This document shows positions 1,333 to 63,753 of a stretch of DNA of 64,000 nucleotides, piece by piece; position 1 is the stretch's first letter, and every line of letters starts with the position of its first letter. The notes beneath the pieces are model-generated. The model had not been told where the DNA came from. It made no database searches and saw nothing but the letters and a program-made list of their open reading frames with translations. Source of the DNA: an uncultured Olsenella sp. (GTDB taxonomy: Bacteria > Actinomycetota > Coriobacteriia > Coriobacteriales > Atopobiaceae). The translations under genes and the position numbers were made by a program. The stretch lies in assembly GCA_900316105.1 (NCBI GenBank), contig ONBR01000005.1, forward strand, positions 1-64,000. The letters are read 5' to 3'.

Positions 1333-2016
1333 CTAGGCCTTGACCCCGTATTGCTCGTAGTAGGCGTCGATGGCAGACTTGAGCTTGTCGTCGATTACAA
1401 GCTTGCCGTCGACCTCGTGATTGTGAAGGGCCTCGGTGACCTCGCTCATCGTGACGATGGCGGAGGTGGGGAAGCCATACTTGTCCTGGATCTCGTCGAT
1501 GGCCGCTTTCTGGCCACCCTTGCCGACCTCCTGGCGATTCAGTGAGACCATGAGGCCAACGACCTCCACGTCGGCTGTGGCCTTGAGCTTGGGGTAGGTC
1601 TCGTCGATTGACTTGCCGGAGGTGGTCACGTCCTCCACGATGACCACACGGTCACCGTCATGAAGCTCTGCGCCCAGAAGCTGGCCCTTGTCGGCACCGT
1701 GGTCCTTGGCCTCCTTGCGATCGGAGCAGTAGCGGGCTTCCTTGCCATAAAGCTCATCCAATGCGATGCAGGTTACGACGGAAAGGGGAATGCCCTTGTA
1801 GGCGGGGCCAAAGACCACGTCAAAGTCCAGCCCAAAGGCCTCGTGGATGGCCTGGGCATAGTAGCGACCCAGCTGGTGGAGTTGAGCGCCCGTCACATAT
1901 GCACCTGCGTTCATGAAGAAGGGTGACTTGCGGCCGCTCTTGAGCGTGAAGTCGCCAAACTTCAGAACGTCACTCTGAACCATGAAGTGGATAAAGTCGC
2001 GCTTGTAATCCTCCAT
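1333..2016 (-). CDS. pyrE: Orotate phosphoribosyltransferase
   Basis: The 227-residue protein transfers PRPP ribose-5-phosphate to orotate, the fifth step of de novo UMP synthesis, in the cytoplasm. The PRPP-binding signature VVIVEDVTTSGKS is at residues 124-136. The GRKSPFFMNAG substrate loop near residues 28-38 and FGPAYKGIPL near 69-78 are typical of OPRTases. Length is at the upper end of the family norm (about 210-230). It is monocistronic here, with no other pyr gene nearby. Its upstream region contains a palindromic repeat (2064-2096) that could affect expression. Confidence 0.95.
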   Translation of the reverse strand: MEDYKRDFIHFMVQSDVLKFGDFTLKSGRKSPFFMNAGAYVTGAQLHQLGRYYAQAIHEAFGLDFDVVFGPAYKGIPLSVVTCIALDELYGKEARYCSDRKEAKDHGADKGQLLGAELHDGDRVVIVEDVTTSGKSIDETYPKLKATADVEVVGLMVSLNRQEVGKGGQKAAIDEIQDKYGFPTSAIVTMSEVTEALHNHEVDGKLVIDDKLKSAIDAYYEQYGVKA

Positions 2017-2063
2017 GTGGCCTCCTTGGCTGCTTGCGTGGGTATGCCTTCATGGTAGTCAAA

Positions 2064-2096
2064 ATGTGACATTTTCCTCAGGGGAAACTGTCACAT
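2064..2096. repeat. Palindromic repeat, variant copy of the TGTGAC...GTCACA family
   Basis: Perfect 8-bp outer arms ATGTGACA and TGTCACAT enclose an imperfect inner stem (TTTTCC / GGGGAAA). The 33-bp length and the arms match the palindrome family found at 49712, 50244, 60976, 61204 and 63721. It lies in the divergent region between pyrE and the C39-like peptidase gene, where it might double as an operator. Confidence 0.6.
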
Positions 2097-2159
2097 CCAG
2101 CAGAGCACTATCCTGACAAAGGCAAAAATCGGTTCTGGACAAGGGTAGGTCCTCTCTCT

Positions 2160-3302
2160 TTGGCTTCTCGGACACGACATAGGCAGCGTACGAATCACAA
2201 TCGAACGACCATGGCGGCACGCCAGAGGTCATGGCGTCGCGTGGCCTTGCACGGAATCGTCCGTCGTAGGAAGGCAGCCCAGGGGAGCATGAGCCTTAGC
2301 TGCGGGCGAGTCGTGCATTCTTCTGTGGGCAACCTTCGCGGCCAGGCGGTCAGGGCGGCGACCTCGACTCTTAGGCAGGTTGGCGATTGGGTGGGCAGGA
2401 AAGGCTCCCGTCGGGCCGCCCTTGCCGGTGCTGCTGCCCTGGCGGTAACCGTGGCCTGTCTGGGCGTCGTCCTGGTGGGTCCAGCCGCAAGGCATCCGGC
2501 GCAAGGCTCACAGGAAGAGGAAGGGGAAGAAGCCCCCGCGAAGCCCCGTAGTTGGACCTTTCCCCCAAGCCTGGAGCACCAGACCGCAAGGGACCTCGAC
2601 GATCTGGGCACGAGGGACCCGCGGGTGGCGGAAGTCCTGGACAGGCTTTCGGAATACGAGCACATCGGATCTGGATCAGAGCACGAGGAGGTTAAGCTCC
2701 TGCGCCTCCTTGCTCACGAGCCCGCCGCGCGTGACTTCGTTCGGGAGCTACCAGACCGCTATCCCCAGGAGCAGGCTGACCCCTATGACCAGGTAGCGAC
2801 CGAGGGCGTCGTTCCCGTCCTCTACCAGTGGGATCAGCGATGGGCCTACACACAGTACTGTGGCATGGAGTTTGGTGCCACTGGCTGCTGTCCCACCGCC
2901 ATGTCCATGGTCTACATGGCAGTCACGGGCAAGAACGACGTGACCCCGCCCATTATGGGTCGGCTGGCGACTGCCGAGGGCTATGCCGATGCTGACTCGG
3001 GTACCTATGGCAACTTCGTTGACTTTGCCGCCCGACACTTTGGCCTGCCCTGCCGGGAGATTGGTGTCTCGCGCGAGGGACTCCTACAGTCTCTGGGCCA
3101 GGGATGCATCGTCGTGGCCAGCATGGGACCAGGGGACTTCACGGATGGTGCTCACTACATAGTGATTACGGGAGTTGCGGAAGACGGCGGCCTGACCATT
3201 CATGACCCCTATTCGCAGCTTCACACAGAGCAGAGCTGGGACATCCAGACAATACTCTCCCAGGCGCGTCGCATGCATGCCTTCCAGCTTCCCAGGTCTT
3301 GA
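2160..3302 (+). CDS. Membrane-anchored C39-like cysteine peptidase
   Basis: The 380-residue protein has a long basic N-terminus, one membrane segment at about residues 86-108 and an acidic linker. The C-terminal domain from about residue 217 resembles the Peptidase_C39_2 (papain-like) fold. The core GATGCCPTAMSMV carries the candidate nucleophile (Cys243 or Cys244). GAHYIVITGV supplies the expected His, and a later Asp (HDPYSQ) could complete the site. The likely location is extracellular, anchored to the membrane. The start is uncertain: ATG 2211 would give a shorter basic tail. The substrate is unknown. It converges on the Pel operon but shows no sign of belonging to it. Confidence 0.75.
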   Translation: MASRTRHRQRTNHNRTTMAARQRSWRRVALHGIVRRRKAAQGSMSLSCGRVVHSSVGNLRGQAVRAATSTLRQVGDWVGRKGSRRAALAGAAALAVTVACLGVVLVGPAARHPAQGSQEEEGEEAPAKPRSWTFPPSLEHQTARDLDDLGTRDPRVAEVLDRLSEYEHIGSGSEHEEVKLLRLLAHEPAARDFVRELPDRYPQEQADPYDQVATEGVVPVLYQWDQRWAYTQYCGMEFGATGCCPTAMSMVYMAVTGKNDVTPPIMGRLATAEGYADADSGTYGNFVDFAARHFGLPCREIGVSREGLLQSLGQGCIVVASMGPGDFTDGAHYIVITGVAEDGGLTIHDPYSQLHTEQSWDIQTILSQARRMHAFQLPRS

Positions 3303-24726: not shown

Positions 24727-24746
24727 GATTCTCCACGACACAAAAC

Positions 24747-24775
24747 GCGACAGACACCCCTGGGGTGTCTGTCGC
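24747..24775 (+). terminator. Strong hairpin after the DUF1858-like gene
   Basis: GCGACAGACACCCC pairs perfectly with GGGGTGTCTGTCGC around a single T, giving a 14-bp stem flanked by CAAAA on the left and AAAAG on the right. There is no T-run on the plus strand. Confidence 0.6.
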
Positions 24776-24783
24776 AAAAGAAG

Positions 24784-24810
24784 GCCCCGATGAGCTTAGC
24801 TCATCGGGGC
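24784..24810. terminator. Second hairpin in the convergent gap
   Basis: GCCCCGATGAGCT (24784-24796) and AGCTCATCGGGGC (24798-24810) form a 13-bp perfect stem with a one-base loop, 8 bases after the previous hairpin. Confidence 0.55.
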
Positions 24811-24856: not shown

Positions 24857-24920
24857 CCCTCGTCTCTTCCTCAGGCGCAGCTCGCGCAGAGCTGTTTGAG
24901 CACTGAGGAAGAGACGAGGG
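24857..24920. repeat. Long hairpin with conserved centre (copy 1)
   Basis: An 18-bp perfect stem (arms 24857-24874 and 24903-24920, CCCTCGTCTCTTCCTCAG and its complement) encloses a centre GCGCAGCTCGCGC...GCTGTTTGAGCA. The copy at 38917-39048 has unrelated arms, also perfectly paired, but nearly the same centre. It sits 9 bases beyond the nrdD stop codon. There is no T-run. Confidence 0.75.
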
Positions 24921-38066: not shown

Positions 38067-38173
38067 GCGGATGGCTGCTGTTGGGGTACGCGCCGCCTTC
38101 TGTGGCGCGCGGAAACGTCGCACACGAATTCGCGTAGAGCGGGCAAATCGCCCGTGAAAGCGAACTATTCAAG

Positions 38174-38214
38174 AATTTGGGTGCACTGGCATTTGAGGCT
38201 AGTGCACCCAAATT
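38174..38214 (+). terminator. Terminator of the glp operon
   Basis: A perfect 14-bp stem AATTTGGGTGCACT / AGTGCACCCAAATT with a 13-base loop is followed by TTC. The A/T ends of the stem make it usable in both directions, between the convergent DUF1667 and GAF genes. The remainder of the 240-base gap shows short GC-rich dyads only. Confidence 0.75.
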
Positions 38215-38307
38215 TTCAAATCAGGCTGGTTCTCTGGCAAAGAGGGACGTCGCGGAAACTTTGTGCGCGTTATGCCTTGGCGGTGTAGCCCTGCAGCGCG
38301 GCGAGCG

Positions 38308-40570: not shown

Positions 40571-40626
40571 AGGGAGTATCCATAGGGGGTACTCCCTTAT
40601 GGATAAGGGGTACTCCCCTATGGATA
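40571..40626 (+). promoter_or_regulatory. Direct-repeat operator upstream of the oligopeptide transporter
   Basis: Two copies of GGGGTACTCCCYTATGGATA start at 40586 and 40607, exactly 21 bases apart. An inverted partial copy (GGGAGTATCCATA) starts at 40572. Each copy contains the palindrome GGGGTACTCCCC or near. The phasing (two helical turns) suggests cooperative binding by a regulator. The site is about 190-245 bases before the substrate-binding protein gene and just after asnS. Confidence 0.55.
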
Positions 40627-49711: not shown

Positions 49712-49744
49712 ATGTGACAAAGGGGCCAGGCCTCTTTGTCACAT
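49712..49744. repeat. 33-bp palindromic element
   Basis: ATGTGACAAAGGGGCC...GGCCTCTTTGTCACAT type palindrome, one of at least five near-identical copies in the window. It sits 3 bases after the zinc-ribbon stop and 3 bases before the pth2 stop, so it can act as a bidirectional terminator for the convergent pair. Confidence 0.88.
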
Positions 49745-50243: not shown

Positions 50244-50276
50244 ATGTGACAAAAGGGGCTACCCCTTTTGTCACAT
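50244..50276. repeat. 33-bp palindromic element
   Basis: ATGTGACAAAAGGGG pairs perfectly with CCCCTTTTGTCACAT around a CTA centre. It lies 55 bases upstream of pth2 and 168 bases upstream of fabH, in the divergent region, mirroring the copy on the other side of pth2. Confidence 0.9.
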
Positions 50277-60859: not shown

Positions 60860-61735
60860 ATGAAGGAACGGATTCCCGGAATTCACGACCTCATCCATCT
60901 GGATGAGGTCGATTCGACTAACACCTATGCCAAGCGCATCTATGCGGCGGACGAGGACGGCGTGGCGACTCGCCTATGTGACAAAAGTGCCAGGCGCTAT
61001 TGTCACATTCCGGTCGATGCCGTTGTCGCGGACGAACAAACGGCGGGACGTGGTCGCCTGGGGCGAGTCTGGCAGAGCCAGAGGGGACAGACCCTGGTCG
61101 TAACCTTTGTTGCCTACGTGCCGGCGCGAGTCCTGCGCGAGTTGGGCGGCGGCTGGCTCACCTCCATCTGTGGCCTCGCCTGCTTGGACGTCCTTCGTGA
61201 GCTGTGTGACAAAAGTGCCAGGCACTTTTGTCACATCGAGGATCTGCAGCTCAAGTGGCCCAACGACCTCTACTGCGCGGGAAAGAAGCTCGGTGGCATT
61301 CTCTGCGAGCTTGTACCTGGGACGGCAACGAAGGAGGAGGTGGGCGTGGTCTTTGGCGTTGGCACGAACCTGCTGACGCCACCCGACCAGCTGCCGCTGC
61401 TTACGGCGACCTCGCTTTCCGCCTGGCTAAGAGGGGCGGTGGGCGAGCTTCCCGCCTTTGATGACCTACGGGCTTGCTTGGTGGGAGAAATCGCCCGCGA
61501 GTTGGGAGACTTCCTGGGACAGCTTGCGGAGCTTGGGCAAGCTGCTACCGACCAGTTTCTGCCCCGCCTGCGCGAGGTCAGCTACACCCTGGGAAAGAGG
61601 GTCGAGGTCAGAAGGACTGACGGGTCAAAGGTCACTGGCGTCGCACAGGACATCCTGTCTGACACGGCCCTCCTGGTGCGAACGGACGCAGGCGAGGGCG
61701 TAGTCGTCACCTCCGGCGACGTCGGCGTCCTCTAG
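60860..61735 (+). CDS. birA: Biotin-[acetyl-CoA-carboxylase] ligase with two palindrome insertions
   Basis: The 291-residue monofunctional ligase (no DNA-binding domain) has HLDEVDSTNTYAKR, the ATP/biotin loop ADEQTAGRGRLGRVW, LKWPNDLYCAGKKLGGIL and a C-terminal SH3-like domain. Two copies of a 33-bp palindrome lie in frame. They add CDKSARRYCH at residues 40-49 and CDKSARHFCH at 116-125, at points where the family has variable loops. Both keep the frame open and the catalytic motifs intact, so the enzyme may still work. Its obvious substrate, AccB, is encoded in the same operon. Confidence 0.93.
   Translation: MKERIPGIHDLIHLDEVDSTNTYAKRIYAADEDGVATRLCDKSARRYCHIPVDAVVADEQTAGRGRLGRVWQSQRGQTLVVTFVAYVPARVLRELGGGWLTSICGLACLDVLRELCDKSARHFCHIEDLQLKWPNDLYCAGKKLGGILCELVPGTATKEEVGVVFGVGTNLLTPPDQLPLLTATSLSAWLRGAVGELPAFDDLRACLVGEIARELGDFLGQLAELGQAATDQFLPRLREVSYTLGKRVEVRRTDGSKVTGVAQDILSDTALLVRTDAGEGVVVTSGDVGVL
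60976..61008. repeat. 33-bp palindromic element inside birA (copy 1)
   Basis: ATGTGACAAAAGTGCC...GGCGCTATTGTCACAT, a near-perfect palindrome (one mismatch inside the right arm), read in frame as the peptide CDKSARRYCH. Confidence 0.9.
61204..61236. repeat. 33-bp palindromic element inside birA (copy 2)
   Basis: TGTGACAAAAGTGCC pairs perfectly with GGCACTTTTGTCACA. It is in the same orientation and the same frame as copy 1 (peptide CDKSARHFCH), 228 bases downstream of it. Confidence 0.92.
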
Positions 61736-63168: not shown

Positions 63169-63726
63169 TTGGGGGTTGGCTTGGACTTGGACTTGGACTT
63201 GGACTACATGCTCGAACGACTCTTCGAGCAACAGAACTCGCGAGGTCTCGTCCGTCCGGACGGGTTCTCGGTGTATGGGCAGCCCGTCCTACGTCGCGTG
63301 CCAGCTGGGCATGAGCCCCAGGCCCTTATGGATGCGAAGACTATCCAGCGTCGTCTGGTGGAGTGCGCTCATGCCGTGCACGCAACTTCCGACGGTCTCT
63401 GTGCCGGCTGGGTCAAGCAGGTCTTTTCCTCCCTGGGCTTTGGTATGCTGGCTGGAGATGCGATAGACATTTACGATGGGGACTGCCCCTACACGGACAC
63501 GGCCGACCTTCTGGTTGGTATGGTTGTTGCGACGTCACGTGAGCCCTACTCTGCGGATGGCAGGGCCTACGGGCACATCGGGCTCTACGTTGGCGACGGA
63601 ATGGTGATGGACAGCGCAGGTGGTCGAGTCCGACGGGTTCCTCTGGAGCTATGGCTCTCTGCCTACGGGATCATGGCTCCTCCGCGCTGGGGTTGGCTTG
63701 CTGGCATCGCCCTCGACCAGATGTGA
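63169..63726 (+). CDS. NlpC/P60-like cysteine peptidase family protein
   Basis: The 185-residue protein shows a papain-like layout: Cys in GLCAGWVKQVFSSLG, His in YGHIGLYVGDGMVMDS and a C-terminal WLSAYGI. It probably acts on peptidoglycan or a related amide, but no signal peptide is visible. The start is unclear. TTG 63169 gives an N-terminus of four Leu-Asp pairs encoded by four TTGGAC repeats (63181-63204). Each TTG could serve as a start, and ATG 63208 is the first ATG. The stop codon is supplied by the palindrome that begins at 63721. Confidence 0.7.
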   Translation: MGVGLDLDLDLDYMLERLFEQQNSRGLVRPDGFSVYGQPVLRRVPAGHEPQALMDAKTIQRRLVECAHAVHATSDGLCAGWVKQVFSSLGFGMLAGDAIDIYDGDCPYTDTADLLVGMVVATSREPYSADGRAYGHIGLYVGDGMVMDSAGGRVRRVPLELWLSAYGIMAPPRWGWLAGIALDQM

Positions 63727-63753
63727 CGAGGGAGCCAGGCGCTTTTGTCACAT
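63721..63753. repeat. 33-bp palindromic element overlapping a stop codon
   Basis: ATGTGACGAGGGAGCC...GGCGCTTTTGTCACAT is a palindrome with three mismatches in the left arm. Its first six bases, ATGTGA, encode the last Met and the stop of the NlpC/P60-like gene. It separates that gene from the next one by serving as a likely terminator. Confidence 0.85.

Follow-up and report, generated by a model that had tools for sequence, protein, structure and literature searches.

Two in-frame palindromes in birA of an uncultured Olsenella sp. are probably RAYT-associated repeat insertions

The birA gene and its two palindromes

The birA gene occupies positions 60860-61735 (plus strand) of the window, that is, of the whole 64-kb stretch of DNA analysed here, and encodes a protein of 291 amino acids with BPL_LplA_LipB and BPL_C domains, which scored above the cut-off of TIGR00121 (birA_ligase). 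An acetyl-CoA carboxylase gene lies immediately upstream. When the genome (91.6% complete) was searched with PF03099, birA was the sole biotin/lipoate ligase-family match found. Because of this and of the neighbouring acetyl-CoA carboxylase gene, BirA is probably still needed and active. The AlphaFold model of BirA had a mean pLDDT of 87, and among PDB structures, Foldseek gave M. tuberculosis BirA as the nearest, matching across the full length.

Two 33-bp palindromes lie within birA in the same orientation and the same frame, with starts 228 bp apart, and the initial annotation had placed them exactly (60976-61236). Copy 1 (60976-61008, plus strand, ATGTGACAAAAGTGCCAGGCGCTATTGTCACAT) has 14 of its 16 arm positions paired, and copy 2 (61204-61236, plus strand, GTGTGACAAAAGTGCCAGGCACTTTTGTCACAT) 15 of 16; the two are identical at 30 of 33 positions, leaving three differences. 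Their TGT codons are codons 40 and 116. We confirmed that they encode the two peptides described before, CDKSARRYCH (residues 40-49) and CDKSARHFCH (residues 116-125). The first lies in the loop preceding strand E52-60, and the second covers the end of helix 98-118 together with the loop that leads to the KWPNDLY motif. In the BirA model, the first insert was a poorly defined coil loop (pLDDT 57-60), and the second was placed at the helix end and loop.

We then counted the 33-mers of the window with at least 14 of 16 arm positions paired. Seven were found, both birA copies among them, and at least two of the others belong to the same palindrome family. Since the whole window holds only seven such 33-mers, the birA palindromes are no chance effect. 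The 14-mer GTGACAAAAGTGCC, with up to two mismatches, was found 7 times compared with 0.34 expected. An extragenic family copy was located at 49712-49744, and another, with a different centre, at 50244-50276. At 2064-2096 there is a palindrome (CCTCAGGGG) that has the GTGACA...TGTCAC frame but differs in its centre. The ORF 63169-63726 takes its stop codon from the TGA of a degenerate copy (63721-63753) located at its 3' end. Three strong palindromes or hairpins near each other (24745-24777, 24784-24810 and 24857-24920, one of them GCGACAGACACCCCTGGGGTGTCTGTCGC) possibly form a related repeat cluster, and other near-perfect inverted repeats, at 40577-40626 and 38167-38221, are unrelated in sequence. 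We also weighed a cAMP-receptor-type site (TGTGA-N6-TCACA) but discarded this reading, because the half-sites of the palindrome are separated by 21 bp.

A dispersed palindrome family and an associated transposase

The strict motif GTGACA-N6-CCWGG-N6-TGTCAC (17 fixed bases) occurred at 61 sites in the genome, counted with GTGACA-N6-CCTGG-N6-TGTCAC read on either strand. With up to two mismatches we obtained 141 forward and 137 reverse hits, palindromic sites being counted on both strands, versus none for a reversed-pattern control. The initial annotation had reported identical elements outside genes. Mostly extragenic relatives do exist in the genome, but they are not identical: a search with the 29-base motif of birA copy 2 returned no further exact copy in the genome, the nearest having two mismatches, and the relatives are two or three bases off this motif.

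We sampled 63 insertion loci, taken from stretches around palindrome copies. Single units were found at 37 of these loci, dimers with a period of 34 bp and a short AAA/TTT linker at 24, and trimers at 2. The closing positions were R-T on the left and A-Y on the right, which gives the 33-bp unit R-TGTGACA-N6-CCWGG-N6-TGTCACA-Y. Flank composition of the sampled copies revealed no target-site rule beyond this R...Y closing pair, and the unpaired GTAG tag of the GTAG REP superfamily was absent from the flanks. The copies were clustered, with 7 neighbouring pairs less than 1 kb apart compared with 1.7 expected (P 0.002; P 0.006 after the observed count was lowered by the birA pair). As copies cluster in general, two hits in birA fit that tendency.

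An insertion was called intragenic when there was coding signal on both sides and a conserved protein around it, as judged by a codon-usage score trained on the 64-kb window and by Pfam matches. The genome-wide search, together with the count of in-frame coding insertions that had been proposed as a check, thus established the family and yielded 3 clearly intragenic loci out of the 63 sampled, namely birA twice and a dimer in cbiD once. If the genome is assumed to be about 85% coding, this is a strong deficit. The dimer in cbiD (contig C8:14-1270, locus L123) is in frame and adds VTMVPGTTVPKCDNSAWHHCH, which includes CDNSAWHHCH; most homologues have a loop shorter by about 15 residues. We rejected other ORFs that seemed to contain a copy (on C21, C24, C27 and C36, among others), as their coding signal was confined to one side. 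Weaker candidates (L132, L134 and L160) were unconvincing as well; at L134, the open frame is antisense and falls in the gap between prfA-like and prmC-like genes. At about ten of the 52 loci analysed, by our own count, the TGA of the element terminates an adjacent gene that has coding signal.

The genome contains two Y1 tyrosine transposase genes, on contigs C24 and C28. The first (C24:3200-3526) matched PF01797 above cut-off, and its best NCBIfam match was the REP-associated transposase NF047646 (E 7e-15, below cut-off). By inspection it carries an MDNHVH motif, and a PDB sequence search with this protein gave no match. The gene is bracketed by 70-nt inverted palindrome dimers that are 90% complementary, and the TGA of the palindrome serves as the stop codon of the gene. 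The second RAYT-type gene (C28:31600-31926; locus L164, about 2000-3230) is flanked by another palindrome family, GAGACA...TGTCTC, for example GAGACATTGGGGACGGAGCGCTTTGTCTC. Each RAYT seems, from these flanks, to have its own repeat.

A similar arrangement was found in another genus of the same family, in a genome (G024) where we sampled 38 insertion loci with its own variant palindrome. In this genome, one of the Y1 genes, a RAYT (C1:1621491-1621820), has palindrome copies on either side, at 1621082 and 1622035, and here too the stop codon is the TGA of the palindrome. At its loci L165-L239, a conserved AATANNNGAA stands before the variant palindrome; it is similar to the 3' end of this RAYT gene (AATATGCGAAGTGACAG) and may be a GTAG-like tag. 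The motif was absent from the four congeners searched and present in 3 of 140 family genomes, being numerous in two of them only. Y1 genes were also found in relatives without this motif, where they presumably go with other repeats. Sporadic presence of a repeat together with a transposase gene flanked by it is characteristic of RAYT-associated repeats, and the RAYT on C24 probably mobilises the palindrome.

Alternative readings of the birA inserts

It is improbable that the birA palindromes were retained as RNA or DNA hairpins tuning expression, by ribosome pausing, mRNA processing or attenuation. Each copy does fold as a strong hairpin, with predicted energies of -16.7 and -21.1 kcal/mol. 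However, the same hairpins occur at dozens of unrelated intergenic sites, so that they provide no positive evidence for a role specific to birA.

Still less probable is a co-option of the peptides, in which C-x7-C-H would bind metal or form a redox or regulatory site, and the exapted CDKSAR inserts would give BirA a new property such as metal or redox sensing or altered partner contacts. If true, a repeat spread by a RAYT would be supplying parts to proteins. The two inserts are near-identical, with paired Cys and His, and the insert in cbiD has the same kind of ending. Six-frame translation of the unit, however, gave CDKSA(R/W)HFCH for frame 0 on either strand, VTKVPGTFVT for frame 1, and stops for frame 2. 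The C-x7-C-H pattern is therefore forced by the frame TGT GAC ... TGT CAC of the palindrome, and for the cbiD dimer, translation leaves only the frame that ends in its Cys/His peptide. Both amino-acid differences between the birA copies (H->R and F->Y) are arm variants also present in intergenic copies, and hence probably came along with the element. The structural model shows both inserts as loops, with low confidence for the first. As the Cys and His residues follow from the palindrome ends in that frame, they are no evidence of metal binding and do not represent a selected motif, and the metal-binding proposal of the initial annotation is not supported.

The loops themselves were compared with those of other BirA proteins. 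From anchor N21 to Q60 (site 1) there are 38 residues here versus a mode of 21 in 39 distant BirA proteins, and from residue 82 to K132 (site 2) 49 residues versus a mode of 37. After subtraction of 11 residues, site 2 comes to 38, within the normal range, and site 1 to 27, a minor class. Relatives that aligned had 21 to 47 residues at site 1 and 38 to 76 at site 2; alignment rows of the same family that were antisense or in wrong frames (L244, L246-L254 and L257-L264) were ignored. At site 1, congeners without the palindrome had 36 and 47 residues; at site 2, they had 43 and 59. These alignments show that loop length varies in this clade at both birA sites, which bears out the earlier placement of the inserts in variable loops. 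Since palindrome-free congener loops are about as long or longer at site 1, the comparison does not establish a plain gain of 11 residues at that site.

A scan of named genomes, with our own and near genomes excluded, yielded distant BirA homologues only (at most 41% in the best segment), and a scan of viruses yielded no homologue. The CDKSA peptide was absent from the 39 distant proteins, from the congeners and from the other family members that aligned. The proposed alignment test of insert absence was thus answered in part: the peptide is in no homologue examined, but no close empty site was visible among the relatives compared, the nearest of which has a BirA 60% identical. In none of these proteins did we find the same residues specified by unrelated codons, which the initial annotation had named as evidence against insertion. 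That the residues are ancestral BirA sequence, palindromic by coincidence or convergence, is very improbable, for all that the congener loops at site 1 are also long, and is already strongly contradicted by the match of the DNA as well as the protein to a genome-wide repeat family and by the absence of the peptide from every homologue examined.

Interpretation and relation to known systems

Taken together, these findings favour, with a probability of roughly 0.88, the reading that the birA palindromes are RAYT-associated REP-type elements that landed in tolerant surface loops, that the peptide follows from the DNA, and that the inserts in BirA are probably neutral. A resident Y1/HUH transposase would spread the 33-bp element, probably as single-stranded hairpins, and the majority of insertions would land, or survive, between genes. 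Those in birA may have survived owing to the 33-bp length, the lack of a stop in two of the three frames, and the length-tolerant helix-to-strand loops, so that BirA would now carry two short DNA-derived peptides. We infer an exact net gain of 33 bp, and likewise infer neutrality of the inserts and continued activity of BirA. The observed part of this reading comprises the family, its link with a RAYT in both genera, an unbroken reading frame, loops that vary in length, and a search that found no other biotin ligase.

The apparent sole biotin ligase hosts both inserts, and tolerance in an essential-looking enzyme is therefore directly testable. For annotators, the case advises caution, as a mobile palindrome read in one of its frames can yield a short Cys/His-rich peptide. 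It also adds a genome beyond the best-known hosts to those with protein-coding palindromes, and links these palindromes to an identifiable transposase whose repeat matches.

Rickettsia palindromic elements (RPEs), to which the birA inserts had been likened at first, are similar in that palindromes stand in frame within conserved genes and add a tolerated peptide. To our knowledge, RPEs have no identifiable transposase with a matching repeat. They represent the classic example of in-frame insertion and are described as measuring 105-146 bp and lying in protein genes (Ogata et al., 2000; reviewed in PMC2229807); one RPE-bearing protein, the guanylate kinase Gmk, is both translated and active (PMC2229807). 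Compared by description and not by sequence, the present family differs from them in its 33-bp unit, its predominantly intergenic location and its resident RAYT. The resemblance thus holds for the way in which the elements work, but REP/RAYT systems are the better comparison, because the genome has a RAYT with these palindromes on both sides.

The family shares its main features with REPs, REP dimers and RAYT/TnpA-REP (REPtrons) and with TIRYT/TIRtrons (Di Nocera et al., 2013; PMC3733652), namely many short palindromes in singles and dimers, mostly intergenic, a bracketed Y1 gene, occasional intragenic copies, and a stop codon sometimes supplied to a neighbour. Many dispersed copies, a flanked Y1 RAYT-type gene, and predominantly extragenic singles and dimers were all found here. 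By the features tested, the element is of the RAYT-associated REP/TIR type without a GTAG tag and not an RPE. REPINs are paired palindromes dispersed by a RAYT, with one RAYT per repeat type (Bertels and Rainey, 2011; PMC3116915); here, in contrast, the period of the dimers is 34 bp, including a short linker, and many loci hold single units. Unlike GTAG REPs, the copies inspected carry no GTAG or CGTC tag and supply TGA rather than TAG, and unlike most REP/RAYT hosts, this host appears to fall outside the groups where most are described.

Insertion into genes had been considered unusual outside Rickettsia, which was overstated. Intragenic REPs are documented in several species, including two insertions per gene in uvrA and uvrB (Di Nocera et al., 2013; PMC3733652), and REPs can supply stop codons (PMC3733652). 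As intragenic and even doubled REP and RPE insertions are already published, the birA case is a new example of a known phenomenon. RAYT genes flanked by non-GTAG repeats, with small repeat families of their own, have also been described (PMC3733652), and the present element comes nearest to the self-complementary terminal-repeat families that flank such RAYT genes without GTAG repeats (PMC3733652).
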